DNA of 42,194 nucleotides from Nitrospira sp. (lineage in GTDB: Bacteria > Nitrospirota > Nitrospiria > Nitrospirales > Nitrospiraceae): contig JAHBWT010000031.1 of NCBI GenBank assembly GCA_019636815.1, positions 1-42,194 of the forward strand, read 5' to 3'. Shown here one piece after another: positions 2,914-26,185 of this stretch. Numbering within the stretch: position 1 is the first letter of the stretch; each line of letters starts with the position of its first letter. The notes beneath the pieces are model-generated. The model was not told the origin of the DNA, searched no databases, and saw nothing but the letters and a program-made list of their open reading frames with translations. The position numbers were made by a program, and so were the translations under genes.

Positions 2914-4250
2914 CACTCAATGGTGACAAGTGGCCCAAAATGACGAGCCGCGAAGAGTTTCGTTTTCTGAGCGAGCTGGTCCTGACTCGGTCGTCAGCCG
3001 ATCACACGATGATCAGCCTCCACGATCACCACGCCGGAACGACCAGATTCGCCAACAACCAAGCGATCCAGAATGTGGATGTACGACAGGGTAAGCTGAC
3101 GGTGACGGTCACCTTCGATGGGCGGCAGGGGACTGCCAGCACGACCGATTTTACGGCCGGCGCGATCCAGGAGACGCTGTCCCGGGCCGAGAACATTGCC
3201 AAAGTCAGCCCTGTTGATCCCGAATACCTTCCTCCTCCTGATCCGTACGTGTTTCCGGCCCGAGAAACTGCGAAACCGGAGACGATGGCGGCGGGGCCGC
3301 CGCGCCGCCTGGAGTACGCAAACGAAGCGATCGGTCAGTGCCGGATGGAGAATCTCATGGCCGCCGGAGCGGTCTCGACATCAGCGACGGCGGTTGGAGT
3401 TGCCGCCAACACCGGACTGTTCGGCTATGAACGACGAGGGGATGCGAGTTTCAGTCTCACGGTCCAAGCTGGTGATGCGACGGGATGGAGCGCGGCCGCC
3501 CATCGATCGATCAATCACTTGAAAGTGCAGGAGCGCACGCTGACAGCGATCCGCAGAGCCAAACGTAGCCGTGATGTATGCGAGCTACCAGCGGGGCGGT
3601 ATCCCGTGATTCTGGAACCGGCCGCTGTAGCCGGACTCTGGGCCTGGCTGATCCGGTCGCTTGATGCCAAGGCCTATGTGAAGGGGACAAGCACCTTCGC
3701 GGGCAAACTGGGAGAGGCGATCGTTGATGAACGCATCACGCTACAGAACAGCCCGGACCATGCGGATTTGTTTGGCGAAGGCTTTTCGAATGACGGCTTG
3801 CCGAGTACGCCTTCGGTATGGATCGATCACGGAATCTTGAGACAGTTGGCGTATGATCGATTCACGGCCAAGCAGCGGGGAGAGGCGATGATCCCCACCT
3901 TGGAGGCTCCTGCATTATCCGTCGAGGGCTCCTCGGTCGACTCCATTCACGATCTTGTGAAGAGGACCGAACGCGCCATTCTCGTGACCAATTTTTGGTA
4001 CATTCGTCCTGTGAATCTTCGTGATCTCATGCTGACCGGGATGACGCGCGATGGAACATTCCTGATCGAAAACGGAGAAATTGTCTCCGCGGTAAAAAAC
4101 TTTCGATTCCATGAGAGCCCGCTCCAAGCATTTCGGCACATCAACATGTGGACGGCGCCGATGGAGGCGGTGAACTCGGAGTCTCGAAAGATCCTGGCCC
4201 CGGCGGTGGCCCTGCCTCACTTCCACTTCTCGAGTGTGACCCGGTTCTAA
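2910..4250 (+). CDS. pmbA: TldE/PmbA family protein, partner of TldD
   Basis: This 446-residue protein shares the TldD/PmbA fold: an N-terminal region with the F-A-N-N-Q-A-I-Q-N-V strand and a C-terminal region rich in beta strands (N-F-W-Y-I-R-P-V-N, then G-E-I-V-S-A-V-K-N-F-R-F). It has no HExxxH motif, as expected for the non-catalytic E subunit that completes the protease chamber with TldD. The start codon overlaps the tldD stop, and the pair forms a two-gene operon. It should act in the cytosol; the natural substrate in this organism is unknown. Confidence 0.9.
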   Translation: MTLNGDKWPKMTSREEFRFLSELVLTRSSADHTMISLHDHHAGTTRFANNQAIQNVDVRQGKLTVTVTFDGRQGTASTTDFTAGAIQETLSRAENIAKVSPVDPEYLPPPDPYVFPARETAKPETMAAGPPRRLEYANEAIGQCRMENLMAAGAVSTSATAVGVAANTGLFGYERRGDASFSLTVQAGDATGWSAAAHRSINHLKVQERTLTAIRRAKRSRDVCELPAGRYPVILEPAAVAGLWAWLIRSLDAKAYVKGTSTFAGKLGEAIVDERITLQNSPDHADLFGEGFSNDGLPSTPSVWIDHGILRQLAYDRFTAKQRGEAMIPTLEAPALSVEGSSVDSIHDLVKRTERAILVTNFWYIRPVNLRDLMLTGMTRDGTFLIENGEIVSAVKNFRFHESPLQAFRHINMWTAPMEAVNSESRKILAPAVALPHFHFSSVTRF

Positions 4251-4300
4251 GTGGTTAAAAAGGAATACAAATGTAGTACGACAGCTTCCTAATAAAAAGG

Positions 4301-4329
4301 TTGACTCTTGCCTCCGCCAGGAGTAGGTA
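4301..4329 (+). promoter_or_regulatory. Possible promoter for the coiled-coil protein gene
   Basis: TTGACT at 4301-4306 and TAGGTA at 4324-4329 are separated by exactly 17 bp, 29 bases before the ATG. The -35 is strong and the -10 weak. Confidence 0.4.
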
Positions 4330-4358
4330 AATTGTACATGGAAGAAAGGACCTAGCCC

Positions 4359-5021
4359 ATGGCCCTGCGATTCAGCAAAGAGCCGATCAACCTCATCCAT
4401 CGTATTCCATCGCAGAAGCAGATCGACGAGGCGCGACCGGTCCCTACGCCATACGGTCAGTTTTTCCTTGAGGTCGCCACCAAGTGTTGGCGAAAGGTGA
4501 TTGAGTTCCTCGCACGTGTGACGCGGTACGAGGAGGAAACAACGTCATCCGGCCAGGCCAAGCAAGGTCCACAAGACGGCCGGGCTGCTTCGACAACGGC
4601 TCAGGCCGCTGCACAATCTGACCAGGTTGTTGAGGTTGGCAATAGCGAGACCGCTGTCGCAGCAAGGGTCCAAGAAGTGGATCCCCCAGCCGTTCAGGAA
4701 GGAGCTCTCCTACACCAGGGTGCGACTCCGACGGTGGTCCAACCTGAGGTGATCTCCGAGCTGCGATCGTTTCTCATTAAACAGCAGGAACAGATTGCGC
4801 ATCTCTCCAACGAAATTGCGCAGTTGAAGTCGCTGGTGGTCTCGCAGCAACAGGTGCTCGTTCATCTCGGACAAGAACTCGAAGCCGACGCCTTCCCCAC
4901 GGTCGCGACCGGGATGGGGCCGAACCCGGCGAAACGGGGGCGGATAGCCCGGAAAAACCCCATCACAAAAGAAAAACCGCTTCCGCCTCAAGAACCTGAA
5001 AGCCAATCCCTAAATTTATAA
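4359..5021 (+). CDS. Hypothetical protein with a central coiled coil
   Basis: I do not recognise this 220-residue protein. An N-terminal segment with several aromatic and basic residues (1-57) is followed by a low-complexity Gln/Ala/Thr/Ser-rich linker (about 60-125). A predicted coiled coil follows (about 128-172, with heptad-like L-x-x-x-I/L spacing around Q-I-A-H-L-S-N-E-I-A-Q-L-K). The tail is basic and Pro-rich. There is no signal peptide or membrane segment. AAAGGA 8 bases before the ATG supports the start, and a TTGACT promoter lies just upstream. The architecture would suit an oligomerising scaffold or regulator, but that is only inference. Confidence 0.75.
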   Translation: MALRFSKEPINLIHRIPSQKQIDEARPVPTPYGQFFLEVATKCWRKVIEFLARVTRYEEETTSSGQAKQGPQDGRAASTTAQAAAQSDQVVEVGNSETAVAARVQEVDPPAVQEGALLHQGATPTVVQPEVISELRSFLIKQQEQIAHLSNEIAQLKSLVVSQQQVLVHLGQELEADAFPTVATGMGPNPAKRGRIARKNPITKEKPLPPQEPESQSLNL

Positions 5022-5198
5022 GCTGCTCTGATCAAGCACAGGCGTCGACCTTCCTCTAGCCAGGTCCGTGGCAGGTCTGTTAAAAAACCGTCCATGACGA
5101 TCCCAAGCGCGCATGTCAGGCGGGCGTGGGCGCATGCAGATGTGACTCTCGCATCTTCACGGTTCTGAGTCGTTGCTAAAGGGTAATGGGAGGAAGTC

Positions 5199-5741
5199 AT
5201 GCGATTCGTGGTCGGTGTTATGGGGCCAGCCAAAGCTCTCAAAAAGGACCTCGACAATGCCCGAGTTCTCGGCGAATTGATTGCCCGACGCGGGTGGGTG
5301 GTTTTGACCGGGGGGCGGGATGTGGGTGTGATGGACGCGGCATGTGAAGGGGCGAAGCGAGTCGGGGGAAGCCTGACCATCGGGGTCTTGCCGACGGTCA
5401 AGGACAAAGTGTCGCGACATGTCGATGTTTCCATCATTACGGAGATGGGTAGTGGACGGAACAATATCAACGTCTTATCCAGTTATGTCGTGGTGGTGTG
5501 TGGGTTGACTGGATCTGGTACCGTGTCGGAAGTCGCGTTGGCGGTGAAGGCAGGCAAGCCCGTCATTCTCGTCGCTGCGTCCCCTGCCGACGTCGCCTTC
5601 TTCCGCAAGCTGGACAAGCGATTGGTCAAGGCCGCGGACTCACCGGAGGAGGCTATCGAGCTCATCATGAAGTTGATGGACGGGCGATCGCGTCACACGC
5701 GCCGTGCTGAACAGGCTCGGTATTCGTATCTTCCCGTGTGA
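5199..5741 (+). CDS. SLOG/LOG-superfamily nucleotide-binding protein (TIGR00725-like)
   Basis: This 180-residue Rossmann-type protein opens with M-R-F-V-V-G-V-M-G. A T-G-G-R-D-V-G-V-M-D-A-A motif follows at about residues 37-48, then G-S-G-R-N-N-I-N-V near 87 and G-L-T-G-S-G-T-V-S-E-V-A near 102-113. The last matches the PGGxGTxxE phosphate-binding loop of the LOG ('lysine decarboxylase-like') family. LOG proteins hydrolyse nucleotide 5'-monophosphates; other SLOG members sense nucleotide ligands. Which applies here is not clear. GGGAGGAAG just upstream supports the ATG. The C-terminal tail after D-G-R is basic. Confidence 0.75.
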   Translation: MRFVVGVMGPAKALKKDLDNARVLGELIARRGWVVLTGGRDVGVMDAACEGAKRVGGSLTIGVLPTVKDKVSRHVDVSIITEMGSGRNNINVLSSYVVVVCGLTGSGTVSEVALAVKAGKPVILVAASPADVAFFRKLDKRLVKAADSPEEAIELIMKLMDGRSRHTRRAEQARYSYLPV

Positions 5742-5854
5742 GCAGTGCGCCACGAACGGGCGCTCTCTCCCCGGATCTCTTCCAGTATCCAAGTCCTGTA
5801 GTAGGATGTACGGACGGTCTCACTGCCACGACAATAGGCGAGGAGGAAGGAGCC

Positions 5855-6475
5855 ATGACCACTCAACGGCGTCTCACATTGTTCACCATCGGCCTTCTGA
5901 TAGGCATGACCTTCGCTCTTACGCCGTCAAACGCGGCGCCTGGCGCAGCCACTAAGGCGAAAGCCTACTTTGCCGGAGGCTGCTTCTGGTGCATGGAAGA
6001 GGCCTTCGAAAAAGTGGATGGGGTGCTCGCGGTCGTCTCCGGCTACATGGGAGGCACGGTCGCCAATCCCACCTATGAACAGGTCTCGGCCGGACGCACG
6101 GGCCATGCGGAAGCTGTCGAAGTGACGTACGATCCCGAAAAGGTCAGCTACCAGAAACTCTTGGATGCCTTTTGGCGCAATGTCGATCCCGTCACGCCGA
6201 ACGCGCAATTCTGCGATCATGGCAGCCAATATCGATCGGCGGTGTTCTATGCAACGGATGAAGAAAAGCGACTTGCGGAAGCATCCAAAGCCGCCATCGA
6301 GCAGGCAAAGCAATTTCCCGTGCCGATCGTGACCGAGCTGGTTCCGGCGTCCACGTTCTACCAAGCCGAGGACTATCATCAGGATTACTACAAGAAGAAC
6401 CCTATCCGGTATAAATACTACAAGTTCAGCTGCGGTCGAGCCCAGCGGTTGGAAGCCTTGTGGGGAAAACCGTAG
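5855..6475 (+). CDS. msrA: Exported peptide-methionine (S)-S-oxide reductase MsrA
   Basis: MsrA repairs methionine-S-sulfoxide in oxidised proteins. The catalytic signature G-G-C-F-W-C-M-E-E spans residues 41-49 with nucleophile Cys43. A candidate resolving Cys193 lies in the F-S-C-G-R-A-Q tail. The conserved F-C-D-H-G-S-Q-Y-R-S segment is also present. I chose ATG 5855 (206 residues) over the upstream GTG 5738 because AGGAGGAAGG lies immediately before it and it gives a clean signal peptide (R-R, about 16 hydrophobic residues, then S-N-A-A). The enzyme is therefore probably periplasmic and would protect envelope proteins. Confidence 0.93.
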   Translation: MTTQRRLTLFTIGLLIGMTFALTPSNAAPGAATKAKAYFAGGCFWCMEEAFEKVDGVLAVVSGYMGGTVANPTYEQVSAGRTGHAEAVEVTYDPEKVSYQKLLDAFWRNVDPVTPNAQFCDHGSQYRSAVFYATDEEKRLAEASKAAIEQAKQFPVPIVTELVPASTFYQAEDYHQDYYKKNPIRYKYYKFSCGRAQRLEALWGKP

Positions 6476-21962: not shown

Positions 21963-22664
21963 TCAAAACGGGAAATAAACCTCTATTCCTCCATAGCTCC
22001 CGCTGTGAAAGGAATTGCTGTTTTGGTATCCACCTTTGGCCAGAAAGAAAACGTTCCCAATCGACACCTCGACAATCGGTCCTGTCTGGACGGCACGAAA
22101 TTCTCCGTTGCCCATTCCTGCAATATCCCATCCAGTGTAGAGGGGACAGCAACCCTGGCCGGCCCTGTACGTTAACAATTTCCCACGCAGACGGCCCCAG
22201 AAGAAATTGTCGAGATCAGCATAGGATCCAATCGCGTGGAGGCTGCCTTTCTCATGCCAATACAGCGCTTCAATTTGGCCGAAGAATCCGACCTGATGAT
22301 CGATCCTCGAACTTGCGTTCAGCCGATCTTCCTCGATTCGGCGCAGTTGCGGACCCGCAAGTGCGAGGAATGTCCACCTGCCGAGTGACTGTGCAATCCC
22401 GAGGGATGGGACGACAAACTGCACGTTGGCATCCAACAGTTGCCCATTGCTCTTGAAACTATATCCAAGGCCAGCTGTCATTGCTTGCGCAAACATGGTT
22501 GTTCCACCCGACATGAGCAAGATCGGGGTCCGTACGCCCAAATAACCGAAATATTGACGCGTATCGTCGATCTGAAATCCGGTGAACGCATCTCCTGCTT
22601 CTGCGCGGCCCGGTACGATCGTCAGGACAAGTGTCGCGAGTAGGAGTGCGATACGTCGCGCCAT
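21963..22664 (-). CDS. bcsS: Cellulose biosynthesis protein BcsS
   Basis: This 233-residue exported protein has a signal peptide (A-R-R-I-A-L-L-L-A-T-L-V-L-T-I-V, cleavage near A-E-A-G). Its mature part is rich in alternating strands and ends Y-G-G-I-E-V-Y-F-P-F, an outer-membrane beta-barrel type end. The features (F-T-G-F-Q-I-D-D, N-F-F-W-G-R-L-R-G-K) fit the BcsS family, found next to bacterial cellulose synthase genes. AAGGGGAAA before ATG 22664 decides the start over the longer frame. bcsA lies upstream on the same strand, supporting the assignment. The molecular role of BcsS is not known. Confidence 0.75.
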   Translation of the reverse strand: MARRIALLLATLVLTIVPGRAEAGDAFTGFQIDDTRQYFGYLGVRTPILLMSGGTTMFAQAMTAGLGYSFKSNGQLLDANVQFVVPSLGIAQSLGRWTFLALAGPQLRRIEEDRLNASSRIDHQVGFFGQIEALYWHEKGSLHAIGSYADLDNFFWGRLRGKLLTYRAGQGCCPLYTGWDIAGMGNGEFRAVQTGPIVEVSIGNVFFLAKGGYQNSNSFHSGSYGGIEVYFPF

Positions 22665-22729
22665 CGGATTTCCCCTTCTAGAACCAGAGTCAACACTAAA
22701 CAAAAAACCAAACAACGGTGTGGCGACAC

Positions 22730-22873
22730 TCATGAACGATACCGGGCGCCAATGACCATCGCTTTATGTTTGACGAACTTGATATAGCTAGAATAGGACA
22801 CGACACAGATAAGCAGGAGAAAAATCAGAAAATGGGACGAGATATCCGTTGTAGGCCAGATCTGGGGCGACAC
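22730..22873 (-). CDS. 47-residue single-helix membrane ORF between bcsA and bcsS
   Basis: This short ORF has a GTG start with AGGGTGGA about 6 bases upstream. It encodes M-S-P-Q-I-W-P-T-T-D-I-S-S, then one membrane helix (H-F-L-I-F-L-L-L-I-C-V-V-S-Y-S-S-Y), then a basic tail (K-F-V-K-H-K-A and G-A-R-Y-R-S). An in-frame stop a few codons upstream limits the N terminus. It lies between bcsA and bcsS on the same strand and recalls the small one-helix accessory proteins of other cellulose systems (for example BcsF), though no sequence relation is claimed. Confidence 0.4.
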   Translation of the reverse strand: MSPQIWPTTDISSHFLIFLLLICVVSYSSYIKFVKHKAMVIGARYRS

Positions 22874-22984
22874 GACTGATCCACCCTGGACGATGATCTA
22901 TTGGGCTGAGTCAAGATGACGGTCGTCGAATCATCTTGAGCAGAGGGCTGCAAGATAGAAAACGATGCAGTGGCACGGTGTTCT

Positions 22985-25273
22985 TCATAATCGTCTCCAC
23001 TGCTTCTGGTGCAGTTCTCGCCAGTGCTGTTCACCTCGCTCGATGCTCTCGATCCTGAAGCGGACACAGGTCGTGCGGAAACGGTGTGTGACCGATACAG
23101 GGCTAACCTTGAGGGTGGTGATGCGGGGGAGTTCTAAGAGAGCTCCGACTAACGACCCCTTCGGAGTTGAAGGGAAGAGGACACTCACGCCCGTGAAGGA
23201 CATATCTGCCAACCTCCCGGATATCAAAGACGCCGACGTGCTTAATCGGCAAGAAGTCGCATGGGGGACTCGCAGCATCCGGCGCCGTTCCCAATTGAAG
23301 GACCGCCAAGGAGCTGTGAGAGCATAAAACAGTGATTGTAGACTGCTAGCGATACCGGGTTGGAATCGATCACTCTCTTCCCAGAGGGTTGGATCACCAA
23401 AAATCTTATCAATGAGTGCCGCTCTAGTCACGTCATCAAGTTCGAAGAACTGAAGCCCGGCTCCTACGCCGCCGGATGGCAACCGTTCCTGTCTAATGAT
23501 TCGTCCAGCTAATCGTACGATAGTGCCTTGAGAGGATGTCAGAAGGAAGGTCACGGTGTCCCGTGCAGTAAAGACGGGGTGTTCAAGTGACAATGCGGCG
23601 CCGTGCTCATTAATATTCAGAATACGCGCTGCGACGGAGGAGTCTTCCGCAAACAACTCGCTCACGAAATCTCGATGAAGCCGGAACGCCTGTCGATCCT
23701 GCGGTTGTTCACTGGCGACGAATATGGCGATCATCAACAGCAAAAGGTTGATGGAACCCCAAAAAAGACTGACCAGAAGACTGGGATCTCCAGTTCCGTG
23801 GCGAAGATTCTGAATCCCTAAGACCAAACCTCCGGCCAACACTCCAAATGTCAACAAGTGCGGCCAAGCCAAGGTCAATTCAGCAGACGAGCTTCTTTTG
23901 ATGCGTTGCCCTTTCGGCGTTACCTCGAAGGCGCGCTCTTTACGAGGAGCGGCGAAGACCTTTAGTGCCACAGCGCTGAGCGCAAAACACATGGCGATTT
24001 CATAGATGTCGGACCAGAATGGGTTGCGCGAGCCACGGCTCACTGGGCGCACGGCTAATGCTGATGCGATGTAGAAAGAGAAGAAATGAAGACTAAGCTG
24101 CAGTACGTTCGCCTGAATCGGGGGCGTGTGGAACAGCAAACTTGAAAGCGGAGCCACAAGGCAGATCAGGCGTGGAAGGCCAAAAAAGAAGTAGAAGATC
24201 GAGCCGAAATAATCCAGGCGCTGCGGCACTGTCAACCCGCGTTTCGTCAGCGGATTGTCGCGAAGGAGGATTTGGATACAGCCCATAGCCCAGCGCTTTC
24301 GCTGCTTGAGGTATCCCTCAAATGTCTCGGGCATCAGACCAGCGGATAGCACACGATTGAGGTAGCAAGATGTATAGCCTTTCGCATGGAGATTCATGCT
24401 CGTATGGATGTCTTCCGTGATGGTCTGGGTTTGGAATCCACCGATTTCTTCGAGCGGTTGGCGACGGAAGAGGCCACCACTGCCTGCAAAGAAGGCACTG
24501 TTATGAGAATCTCGCCCGGCCTGCAATGAGTGGAAGAACAACGCTTGCTCGTTCTTGACGAGATCGCCGACCCGCAGGTTACGCTGGAAAATATCCGGAT
24601 TGTAGAAGTGGTGGGGGGTCTGCACGATGGCCACATTGGGGTCATCGAAGAAACCAACGGTCTCCTTCAGAAACGTACGGGCCGGGACATGGTCCACATC
24701 GAAGACGGCTATGAGGTCGCCATCGGTCGTACGAAGTGCATGATTGAGATTTCCGGCTTTAGCATGGCGGGGACGATCCGGGCGCCTGATGTAGCCACAG
24801 CCTAGGGCGGTCGCGAGCTTCTTCGCTTCAAGCCGGTGACCGTCATCGAGAACATACACCTTGAACCGATCCTTGGGATATTCCTGCGATAGACAACCCA
24901 TCAACGTTTGCCGCAGGAGCGAGAGTGGTTCATCCACGACGGTGACCATGATGTCGACAGTCAGGTAATTCGTGATCGGCGCCGGTTGACGGTCAGTAGG
25001 CGACCAGGATTGATACGTGAAGAAGCAAAATTGACAGAGTCCATACAGCTCGGCGAGATACACGATCCCTCCGACGATCATGCTGTTCATGTCTTCGGTA
25101 GGCAGTGTGTAGAGCGTCCGCCAGACCATGTAACGGACGTACAGGAAGAGACTCAGAGCTAGGACCCACCGACGCCCTCGTTTCTCCTTGAGAAGAAGGC
25201 CAATCGCGAAGAGGATCAGGCCGGAGACTCCTGCTGCAACAGGGGTGTCGAAAAATGTGTCGAGGAGTGTCAT
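22985..25273 (-). CDS. bcsA: Cellulose synthase catalytic subunit BcsA with two PilZ-like domains
   Basis: This 762-residue inner-membrane GT2 synthase polymerises glucose from UDP-glucose and exports the chain. Three N-terminal membrane segments are followed by the catalytic domain: D-D-G at 143-145, D-V-D at 192-194, T-E-D at 286-288 and Q-R-K-R-W at 324-328. Five or so C-terminal helices follow. Two PilZ-like regions end the protein: one at about 524-620 (R527-x3-R531, degenerate N-I-N-E-H-G), one at about 660-755 (R664-x3-R668, D-M-S-F-T-G). The second has the normal c-di-GMP motif, so synthesis is probably c-di-GMP-activated. ATG 25273 was preferred to a TTG ten codons upstream; both have weak signals. 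Confidence 0.9.
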   Translation of the reverse strand: MTLLDTFFDTPVAAGVSGLILFAIGLLLKEKRGRRWVLALSLFLYVRYMVWRTLYTLPTEDMNSMIVGGIVYLAELYGLCQFCFFTYQSWSPTDRQPAPITNYLTVDIMVTVVDEPLSLLRQTLMGCLSQEYPKDRFKVYVLDDGHRLEAKKLATALGCGYIRRPDRPRHAKAGNLNHALRTTDGDLIAVFDVDHVPARTFLKETVGFFDDPNVAIVQTPHHFYNPDIFQRNLRVGDLVKNEQALFFHSLQAGRDSHNSAFFAGSGGLFRRQPLEEIGGFQTQTITEDIHTSMNLHAKGYTSCYLNRVLSAGLMPETFEGYLKQRKRWAMGCIQILLRDNPLTKRGLTVPQRLDYFGSIFYFFFGLPRLICLVAPLSSLLFHTPPIQANVLQLSLHFFSFYIASALAVRPVSRGSRNPFWSDIYEIAMCFALSAVALKVFAAPRKERAFEVTPKGQRIKRSSSAELTLAWPHLLTFGVLAGGLVLGIQNLRHGTGDPSLLVSLFWGSINLLLLMIAIFVASEQPQDRQAFRLHRDFVSELFAEDSSVAARILNINEHGAALSLEHPVFTARDTVTFLLTSSQGTIVRLAGRIIRQERLPSGGVGAGLQFFELDDVTRAALIDKIFGDPTLWEESDRFQPGIASSLQSLFYALTAPWRSFNWERRRMLRVPHATSCRLSTSASLISGRLADMSFTGVSVLFPSTPKGSLVGALLELPRITTLKVSPVSVTHRFRTTCVRFRIESIERGEQHWRELHQKQWRRL

Positions 25274-25381
25274 CGTGAAGGTGTTCTCGATGTAAGGTTT
25301 CAAAAGCCGATCTCGTGGGGGTCACCGTATTACAGAGGCACCCGTTCGCCTATCCCTACGGACGGGGTCGACCTTTTGAGG

Positions 25382-25462: not shown

Positions 25463-26074
25463 CTAGGTCCAGAGTTCGAGTGGGCCGTGGTTGGCGATGC
25501 CTTGGAGCAAGTCGTGGGTTGATAAAATGCCGACGAGAAGCCGGTGATTGTCCAGGATTGGAACAGCATGAATTTGTTCATCAAGCATGACGCGCGCAAT
25601 CTCTCGGATTTCCGTCGTGGGCGTGGCCGTGATGACTCTGGAGATCATAATTTCAGCTAATCGCTTTTGCGCGGCCTGTCTCTTGTCGCCTGCTGTAATC
25701 AGTTCCGGGACGTGCAGGAGCAAATCACGATACGACACCATCCCTACCAGGGTGCCATGGAAGGAAGTTACGGGAACATGGTGAAAACTCTTCTGAGACA
25801 TGATCGCCCAGGCATCGAGCAACCTACTGTCGGATGGGAGAGAGAGGACCGGAGATTTCATTAAATCTCTGGCCAGAACCGCCGGATTTGGATGTTGTTG
25901 GATGCTGGCTTGACGGTAGGCAGTCTGCGCTGTCAAAGCGGAGTGATCCAATGACGGAGGGTGTTGATCATGAGATTCACGATCCCCAACAGGGTTAGCC
26001 CGGTTAGGCCGTGAGCCCACCTGCTTTGTCGGATAGATCTCGGTGATTCCATTGACCGCCAGATTAATAGGCAT
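25463..26074 (-). CDS. Protein with two CBS domains
   Basis: This 203-residue protein has a disordered N terminus of about 65 residues followed by a CBS pair. The first (L-M-K-S-P-V-L-S-L-P, H-H-V-P-V, G-M-V-S-Y-R-D-L) is at about 73-122. The second (M-I-S-R-V-I-T-A-T-P, I-H-A-V-P-I-L-D, G-I-L-S-T-H-D-L-L) is at about 142-195. CBS pairs bind adenine nucleotides and act as energy or ligand sensors. GGAGAG 7 bases upstream decides ATG 26074 over an upstream TTG. There is no enzymatic or membrane domain, so it probably regulates a partner; its place after bcsA may be coincidental. Confidence 0.88.
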   Translation of the reverse strand: MPINLAVNGITEIYPTKQVGSRPNRANPVGDRESHDQHPPSLDHSALTAQTAYRQASIQQHPNPAVLARDLMKSPVLSLPSDSRLLDAWAIMSQKSFHHVPVTSFHGTLVGMVSYRDLLLHVPELITAGDKRQAAQKRLAEIMISRVITATPTTEIREIARVMLDEQIHAVPILDNHRLLVGILSTHDLLQGIANHGPLELWT

Positions 26075-26185
26075 GGGGAAACTCTCCAACGTCTATATCG
26101 GAACGCTTGGGAAATACTTAAGCAGGGGCCGAGTTACGCTTAAAAAGGTGCGAAAGCAATCTCTGAACCCAAGGAGTTCCAATCT

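Follow-up and report, generated by a model that had tools for sequence, protein, structure and literature searches.

The PilZ domain of BcsA is a model case for direct enzyme activation by c-di-GMP. In Rhodobacter (Cereibacter) sphaeroides BcsA (4hg6, 4p00, and 5ej1), a GT2 core with TED, QxxRW, and FxVTxK gating-loop motifs is followed directly after the last membrane helix by a single PilZ domain, with arginine and glutamate lock residues, and the synthase is accompanied by BcsB. According to PMC10374906, the gating loop at rest is held by a salt link that joins Arg580 in the PilZ domain to Glu371 in the GT domain, and both this arginine and Arg584 rearrange onto c-di-GMP. The Type II Bcs system of E. 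coli (BcsA with BcsE and BcsRQ) possesses a second c-di-GMP sensor besides the PilZ domain of BcsA: the separate protein BcsE, which contains a degenerate REC-GGDEF module and is described in PMC7439463 and PMC11470070 as a higher-affinity sensor acting on the synthase. RiGT2 of Romboutsia ilealis is also a PilZ-bearing GT2 synthase; PMC10374906, which also gives the QXXRW motif, places no bcsB beside its gene and assigns it the FxVTxK gating-loop motif in common with C. sphaeroides BcsA, one PilZ domain, and a (1,3;1,4)-beta-glucan product. The same paper records both PilZ motifs in the RiGT2 PilZ domain and no c-di-GMP binding seen.

Two PilZ domains in one chain are found in M. xanthus PixB (PMC8316039), which carries an acetyltransferase rather than a synthase, and a survey (PMC11800159) lists two-PilZ proteins apart from fusions of PilZ with cellulose synthase. 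Tandem PilZ proteins are already known, and the new aspect of the protein described here would be, from its sequence, a second PilZ domain within a BcsA-like synthase. In the literature searched, coverage of which was partial, neither a BcsA with two PilZ domains was described nor did any paper match a BcsA without BcsB.

We analyzed a 42,194-nucleotide stretch of a Nitrospira contig (hereafter the window), the minus strand of which encodes a BcsA-like protein of 762 aa (22985–25273) consisting of a GT2 domain with membrane helices and then two PilZ domains, PilZ1 and PilZ2. The protein shares with R. sphaeroides BcsA the GT2 core, its motifs, the position of the first PilZ domain, and the lock residues, but it has a second PilZ domain, and a BcsB gene was not found in the genomes searched (see below). 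As in E. coli there would be a second sensor, but here it is a predicted PilZ domain inside the synthase chain instead of a separate protein, and like RiGT2 the synthase has no bcsB beside its gene, but unlike RiGT2 it has two PilZ domains.

The synthase core and its two PilZ domains

The bcsA-like gene starts at an ATG at position 25273 and stops at 22985, an extent that an earlier note on this DNA had given correctly. The mechanical ORF is longer (22985–25303, 772 aa from a TTG), and ATG 25273 was taken as the start because the equivalent residue is the first start codon in many relatives. The GT2 and transmembrane part (residues 1–521; 23711–25273, minus strand) contains DDG, DxD, TED, QRKRW, and gating-loop motifs, with TITED at residues 284–288, QRKRW at 324–328 (numbered from the ATG), and FEVTPKG, comparable with FxVTxK, at 449–455 (23909–23929, minus strand). 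TED is counted among the motifs of BcsA-type GT2 synthases, so that all three BcsA-type motifs, TED, QxxRW, and FxVTxK, are present in the window protein. In the score against TIGR03030, the NCBIfam equivalog for UDP-forming cellulose synthase, it reached 559.3 bits, under the cut-off of 699.1 bits, and for this reason we name it BcsA-like and not an equivalog of that family.

A full-length predicted model (mean pLDDT 80.4) matched the BcsA fold of GT domain, membrane part, and PilZ domain: residues 1–655 aligned with solved BcsA structures 9b8v (Z 43.3, 643 residues, 3.4 Å) and 4p00 (Z 38.7, 642 residues, 4.0 Å). Residues 225–241, 249–253, 259–263, 524–529, 633–637, and 657–662 had a pLDDT below 50. 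An assembly artefact of the window contig was ruled out by the occurrence of the same architecture in other assemblies, and the complete genome of N. moscoviensis (locus L062) shares the tandem-PilZ bcsA-like arrangement with an intact ORF. Among plasmids the whole protein matched 478 records, and the best 15 of these all ended no further than query residue 696, in the first part of PilZ2; PilZ2 alone retrieved no plasmid record.

PilZ1 (residues 525–626; 23396–23701, minus strand) occupies the usual position of the BcsA PilZ domain. In a six-frame search of the genome, which gave 26 PilZ matches with PilZ1 and PilZ2 among them, it matched PF07238 with 45.9 bits (E 2.0e-11, window positions 23399–23701; cut-off 22.5 bits). 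Its RxxxR motif is RQAFR (residues 527–531; 23681–23695, minus strand), and NINEHG (residues 553–558; 23600–23617, minus strand) agrees with [DN]x[SN]xxG. Because model residues 1–655 align with BcsA structures, PilZ1 is identified as the PilZ domain proper to BcsA. R527 and R531 align with the RxxxR arginines of Rhodobacter BcsA, and E316, within PETF (residues 315–318; 24320–24331, minus strand), aligns with the PETF glutamate of that protein, which is taken to be Glu371. Since these three residues match the BcsA lock residues and are identical in all 25 aligned rows, window included, PilZ1 is interpreted as the canonical gate. In phmmer searches, neither the isolated PilZ1 segment nor a longer one including the gating loop matched any PDB chain, and the alignment of PilZ1 with BcsA is for that reason based on a still longer segment and on the model.

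A predicted linker helix (residues 641–658; 23300–23353, minus strand) connects PilZ1 to PilZ2 (residues 662–761; 22991–23290, minus strand), an added C-terminal barrel and helix. PilZ2 has RRMLR as its RxxxR motif (residues 664–668; 23270–23284, minus strand) and DMSFTG at residues 690–695 (23189–23206, minus strand), and it matched PF07238 with 26.1 bits (E 2.8e-5, window positions 23048–23290; six-frame search, cut-off 22.5 bits) over profile positions 1–75 of 102. The placing of PilZ2 on PilZ1 in the predicted model is uncertain because residues 633–637 and 657–662 lie below pLDDT 50. Modeled alone, PilZ2 formed six strands and a terminal helix with a pLDDT of 82.7, reaching 91–96 across model residues 41–120. 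In VIA-align this model scored highest, at 13.9, with 5y4r_C, a chain of an entry titled "methyltransferase complex" that we take to be MapZ. It was followed by Z scores of 12.4 for MapZ 5xly_B, 12.1 for MotI, 11.8 for E. coli BcsA over its PilZ domain, 11.5 for MrkH, 10.6 for YcgR, 9.9 for Rhodobacter BcsA, and 9.7 for 4q63, an uncharacterized Legionella protein, with flavin reductases from 8.4 down; 1ywu, presumably a PilZ protein, was also a fold match. The best Foldseek match was YcgR (E 8.2e-4). A PilZ2 profile searched against PDB sequences first retrieved the PilZ protein 8u0i (E 0.008), and the cellulose synthase PilZ domain 4i86 appeared at E 1.7, which is not significant alone.

The earlier note had proposed two consecutive PilZ-like regions, and both the profile search and the structure prediction that it suggested bear this out: there are two PF07238 hits above the cut-off in place of one hit and a non-PilZ fold, and the barrel of isolated PilZ2 aligns with PilZ structures. 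Its description of the first region as degenerate does not hold, PilZ1 being the stronger PilZ match, in the BcsA position and with a motif that fits the consensus. The label of canonical for the second region is apt insofar as DMSFTG fits the motif, but the ranking that it implied is misleading, since PilZ2 is the extra domain and the one in which the motif is less often complete.

Distribution, phylogeny, and conservation

Matches of the tandem type were detected in 8 of 34 genomes of the same genus (the window's own not counted), a patchy distribution, and the tandem gene is broken by internal stops in G013 and by a split frame in L063. Of 395 Nitrospirota genomes, 71 had BcsA-like matches (E 1e-60); in the phylum to which the Deltaproteobacteria MAG L073 belongs the figure was 28 of 297 (E 1e-50), in that of the Acidobacteria MAG L074 it was 30 of 297, and in that of the Anaeromyxobacter locus L077 it was 21 of 193. 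A Pfam scan of seven BcsA-like relatives gave two or three PilZ stretches (E up to 1) in all seven. Many of L185–L205, from the phylum of L074, have BcsA-like frames of roughly 1360–1630 aa with a PilZ domain and then a long C-terminal part.

A phylogenetic tree of 90 nonredundant GT domains was constructed by a quick method, with long branches flagged and with eight weak Nitrospirota matches and four places from the phylum of L074 left out. By HMM, 37 of the proteins were labeled tandem, 43 single, and 10 none, most GH8-BcsA rows being entered as single although their tails are PilZ2-like. The tandem label required 8 changes on the tree compared with a mean of 28.7 after shuffling. A clade of 26 rows (SH-aLRT 95), mostly from Nitrospirota, contains 25 tandem proteins; it includes L153 and L154, both from the phylum of L073, and its row L093 (633 aa) has a partial single PilZ domain only. 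A separate branch of 28 rows has 26 single and no tandem proteins, and such single-PilZ branches, together with PMC11470070, uphold the earlier note's statement that BcsA usually carries one PilZ domain. Near the 26-row clade are the tandem proteins L182–L184 (phylum of L074) and GH8-BcsA fusions, and a distant tandem group, including L120, L123, L134, L138, and L139, lies outside it. Tandem proteins occur in several families of Nitrospirota and, beyond that phylum, in an Acidobacteria and a Deltaproteobacteria MAG. The two-PilZ arrangement is common to many relatives and is a real regulatory variant, not the quirk of one gene.

The GH8-BcsA fusions of Nitrospirota and Anaeromyxobacter have a related GT2 core, a PilZ domain, and a tail that hhalign matches to PilZ2 despite its divergence (probability 70, E 4e-5), but differ from the window protein in the GH8 endoglucanase domain in front and in a second PilZ domain that is barely recognizable. 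Pfam detected GH8 in L043 (6747–10145) and L077 (6534–9938), where it precedes BcsA in a single chain of at least about 1130 aa, and searches of whole genomes showed it in five from Nitrospirota; L076 and L078, judged on length and similarity, are probably also GH8-BcsA fusions.

To compare the ligand motifs, 49 distinct two-PilZ proteins, window included, were picked from 174 unique sequences by at least two PilZ hits, a GT identity of at least 42%, and a length below 900 aa, with L117 and L064 dropped from an initial 51; the set contains some near-copies and L182–L184 from outside the 26-row clade. Read from alignment columns, the c-di-GMP motif is complete in 47 of the 49 for PilZ1 and in 39 for PilZ2. 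Both arginines and the glycine of PilZ2 are present in all 49, its acid/amide position is Q, K, or E in seven, which belong to a sub-lineage 48–50% identical to the window protein, and its serine is glycine in three. These changes, while PilZ1 is nearly always complete, indicate that the PilZ2 ligand site is less constrained. The reverse of the usual pattern occurs in the second BcsA-like gene of G067 (L102, 870–3224), where the first PilZ1 arginine is replaced by glutamine and the PilZ2 motif is full.

Median pairwise dN/dS among the window gene and eight close relatives (36 possible pairs, saturated pairs dropped) was 0.062 for the GT/transmembrane part (29 pairs); the two PilZ domains had higher medians, 0.145 over 27 pairs for PilZ1 and 0.176 over 34 pairs for PilZ2. 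These figures are rough because many of the pairs have a dS close to saturation. PilZ1 and PilZ2 are both under purifying selection.

Neighboring genes

A bcsS-like gene (233 aa; 21963–22664, minus strand) lies beside the bcsA-like gene; its start is the one common to relatives, and the mechanical ORF runs to 22733. The BcsS-like protein of the window scored below the PF17036 cut-off, and relatives L038, L073, and L075 scored over it, the L075 neighbor being BcsS by Pfam. In a BLAST survey of 23 loci, which gave no result for L062, a BcsS-like gene follows bcsA in 19, among them the window. PF17036 matches at E 0.01 or better were detected in 13 of 32 carrier genomes (six over the cut-off), each adjoining bcsA by coordinates. 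Upstream of bcsA is a gene for a protein with two CBS domains (25463–26089, minus strand), which takes the same upstream place in several close relatives. In L061, tandem-PilZ bcsA genes at 683–2956 and 4120–6402 flank one bcsS-like gene.

BcsB (PF03170) was not detected over the cut-off in any of 36 genomes (0 of 12 and 0 of 24), with one sub-cut-off match in G171, in a search in which E. coli and B. subtilis controls registered; a strongly diverged BcsB, or one that falls in the gaps of incomplete assemblies, could have escaped this search. Carriers made up 32 of the 36 genomes, of which G164 and G414, with identical coordinates, are probably the same genome; the other four were G138, which is not a known carrier, and the GH8-fusion genomes G415, G025, and G029.

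Between bcsA and bcsS, three loci have a separate gene of 251–266 aa that resembles the tandem PilZ tail and is open at L054 10253–11032, L068 10298–11053, and L063 2994–3794; Pfam recognized both PilZ domains in the L063 protein and one each in those of L054 and L068. The window has a decayed remnant of this gene, with stops and frame changes, at 22625–22880 (minus strand), found by tblastn in a search across the whole window at E 8.8e-8 against 0.42 for the best reversed-sequence control, and traces are present in other relatives too. An 893-aa BcsA-like protein (L060 8004–10685, the same protein as L087 1087–3768) has a third PilZ domain, apparently from fusion with the tandem-PilZ gene.

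Roles of the two PilZ domains

We lean toward a BcsA-like synthase in which PilZ1 gates and PilZ2 is a c-di-GMP-responsive module that tunes PilZ1 activation. The enzyme would be an inner-membrane beta-glucan synthase. Without c-di-GMP, an arginine of the PilZ1 RxxxR motif would keep the gating loop shut through a salt bridge to the GT-domain glutamate, and c-di-GMP on PilZ1 would free the loop as with the single PilZ domain of BcsA. PilZ2, attached by a helix after PilZ1, most likely itself binds c-di-GMP, to judge by its motifs, and might buttress the active state, raise local ligand, or steepen the response, making it by analogy a built-in counterpart of the separate BcsE of E. coli. Control by the two domains may be cooperative or gated, as the earlier note suggested. 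In this scheme we infer that the domains bind ligand, in which direction and how cooperatively PilZ2 acts, and which polymer is made; the RiGT2 example makes a mixed-linkage glucan feasible for a PilZ synthase without an adjacent bcsB.

PilZ2 could instead serve in docking or structure without binding c-di-GMP: it would hold PilZ1 or bring in a partner, such as the separate tandem-PilZ protein in genomes that have it, and leave all sensing to PilZ1. The nonbinding PilZ domain of RiGT2 lends this credibility, and it would suit a ligand motif incomplete in 10 of 49 proteins for PilZ2 against 2 of 49 for PilZ1, the low PF07238 score of PilZ2, and the even more diverged PilZ2-like tail of the GH8-BcsA fusions, but the full motif in the other 39 proteins, the arginines and glycine kept in every one, and purifying selection on PilZ2 argue for a ligand site; we regard docking as a serious contender, though short of even chances. 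The incomplete Pfam coverage of PilZ2 might suggest that only one PilZ domain is real and that the other region has a different fold and the motif by chance, or stems from a mis-joined frame. We reject this as having next to no chance, given the PF07238 score over the cut-off, the repeated PilZ stretches in all seven relatives scanned, the PilZ2 model and fold searches, and the intact ORF, including that of the complete N. moscoviensis genome.

The slightly weaker constraint on PilZ2 in dN/dS would also fit a recent duplicate of PilZ1 drifting within Nitrospira. However, the window PilZ2 scored 13.9 bits with a PilZ1 HMM and 136.9 with a PilZ2 HMM (the HMMs were trained on the sequences scored, so that own-HMM scores are inflated), and the tandem members span several Nitrospirota families and the Acidobacteria and Deltaproteobacteria MAGs, so that recent duplication is rejected as very improbable. 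More tentatively, this BcsA-like branch without recognizable BcsB might use its PilZ stack alone as a putative steep or higher-affinity c-di-GMP switch, which we consider rather unlikely. The stack would comprise the two domains in the synthase, in some Nitrospira two more from the gene between bcsA and bcsS, and in the L060/L087 protein a third fused one.

The apparent lack of BcsB raises the question of polymer export in this BcsA-like branch. Nitrospira are nitrite oxidizers whose growth in flocs and biofilms is important both in wastewater and in soil. With a second PilZ domain in the same chain throughout a conserved lineage, the tandem-PilZ synthases offer a compact natural system for two PilZ domains sharing one output.
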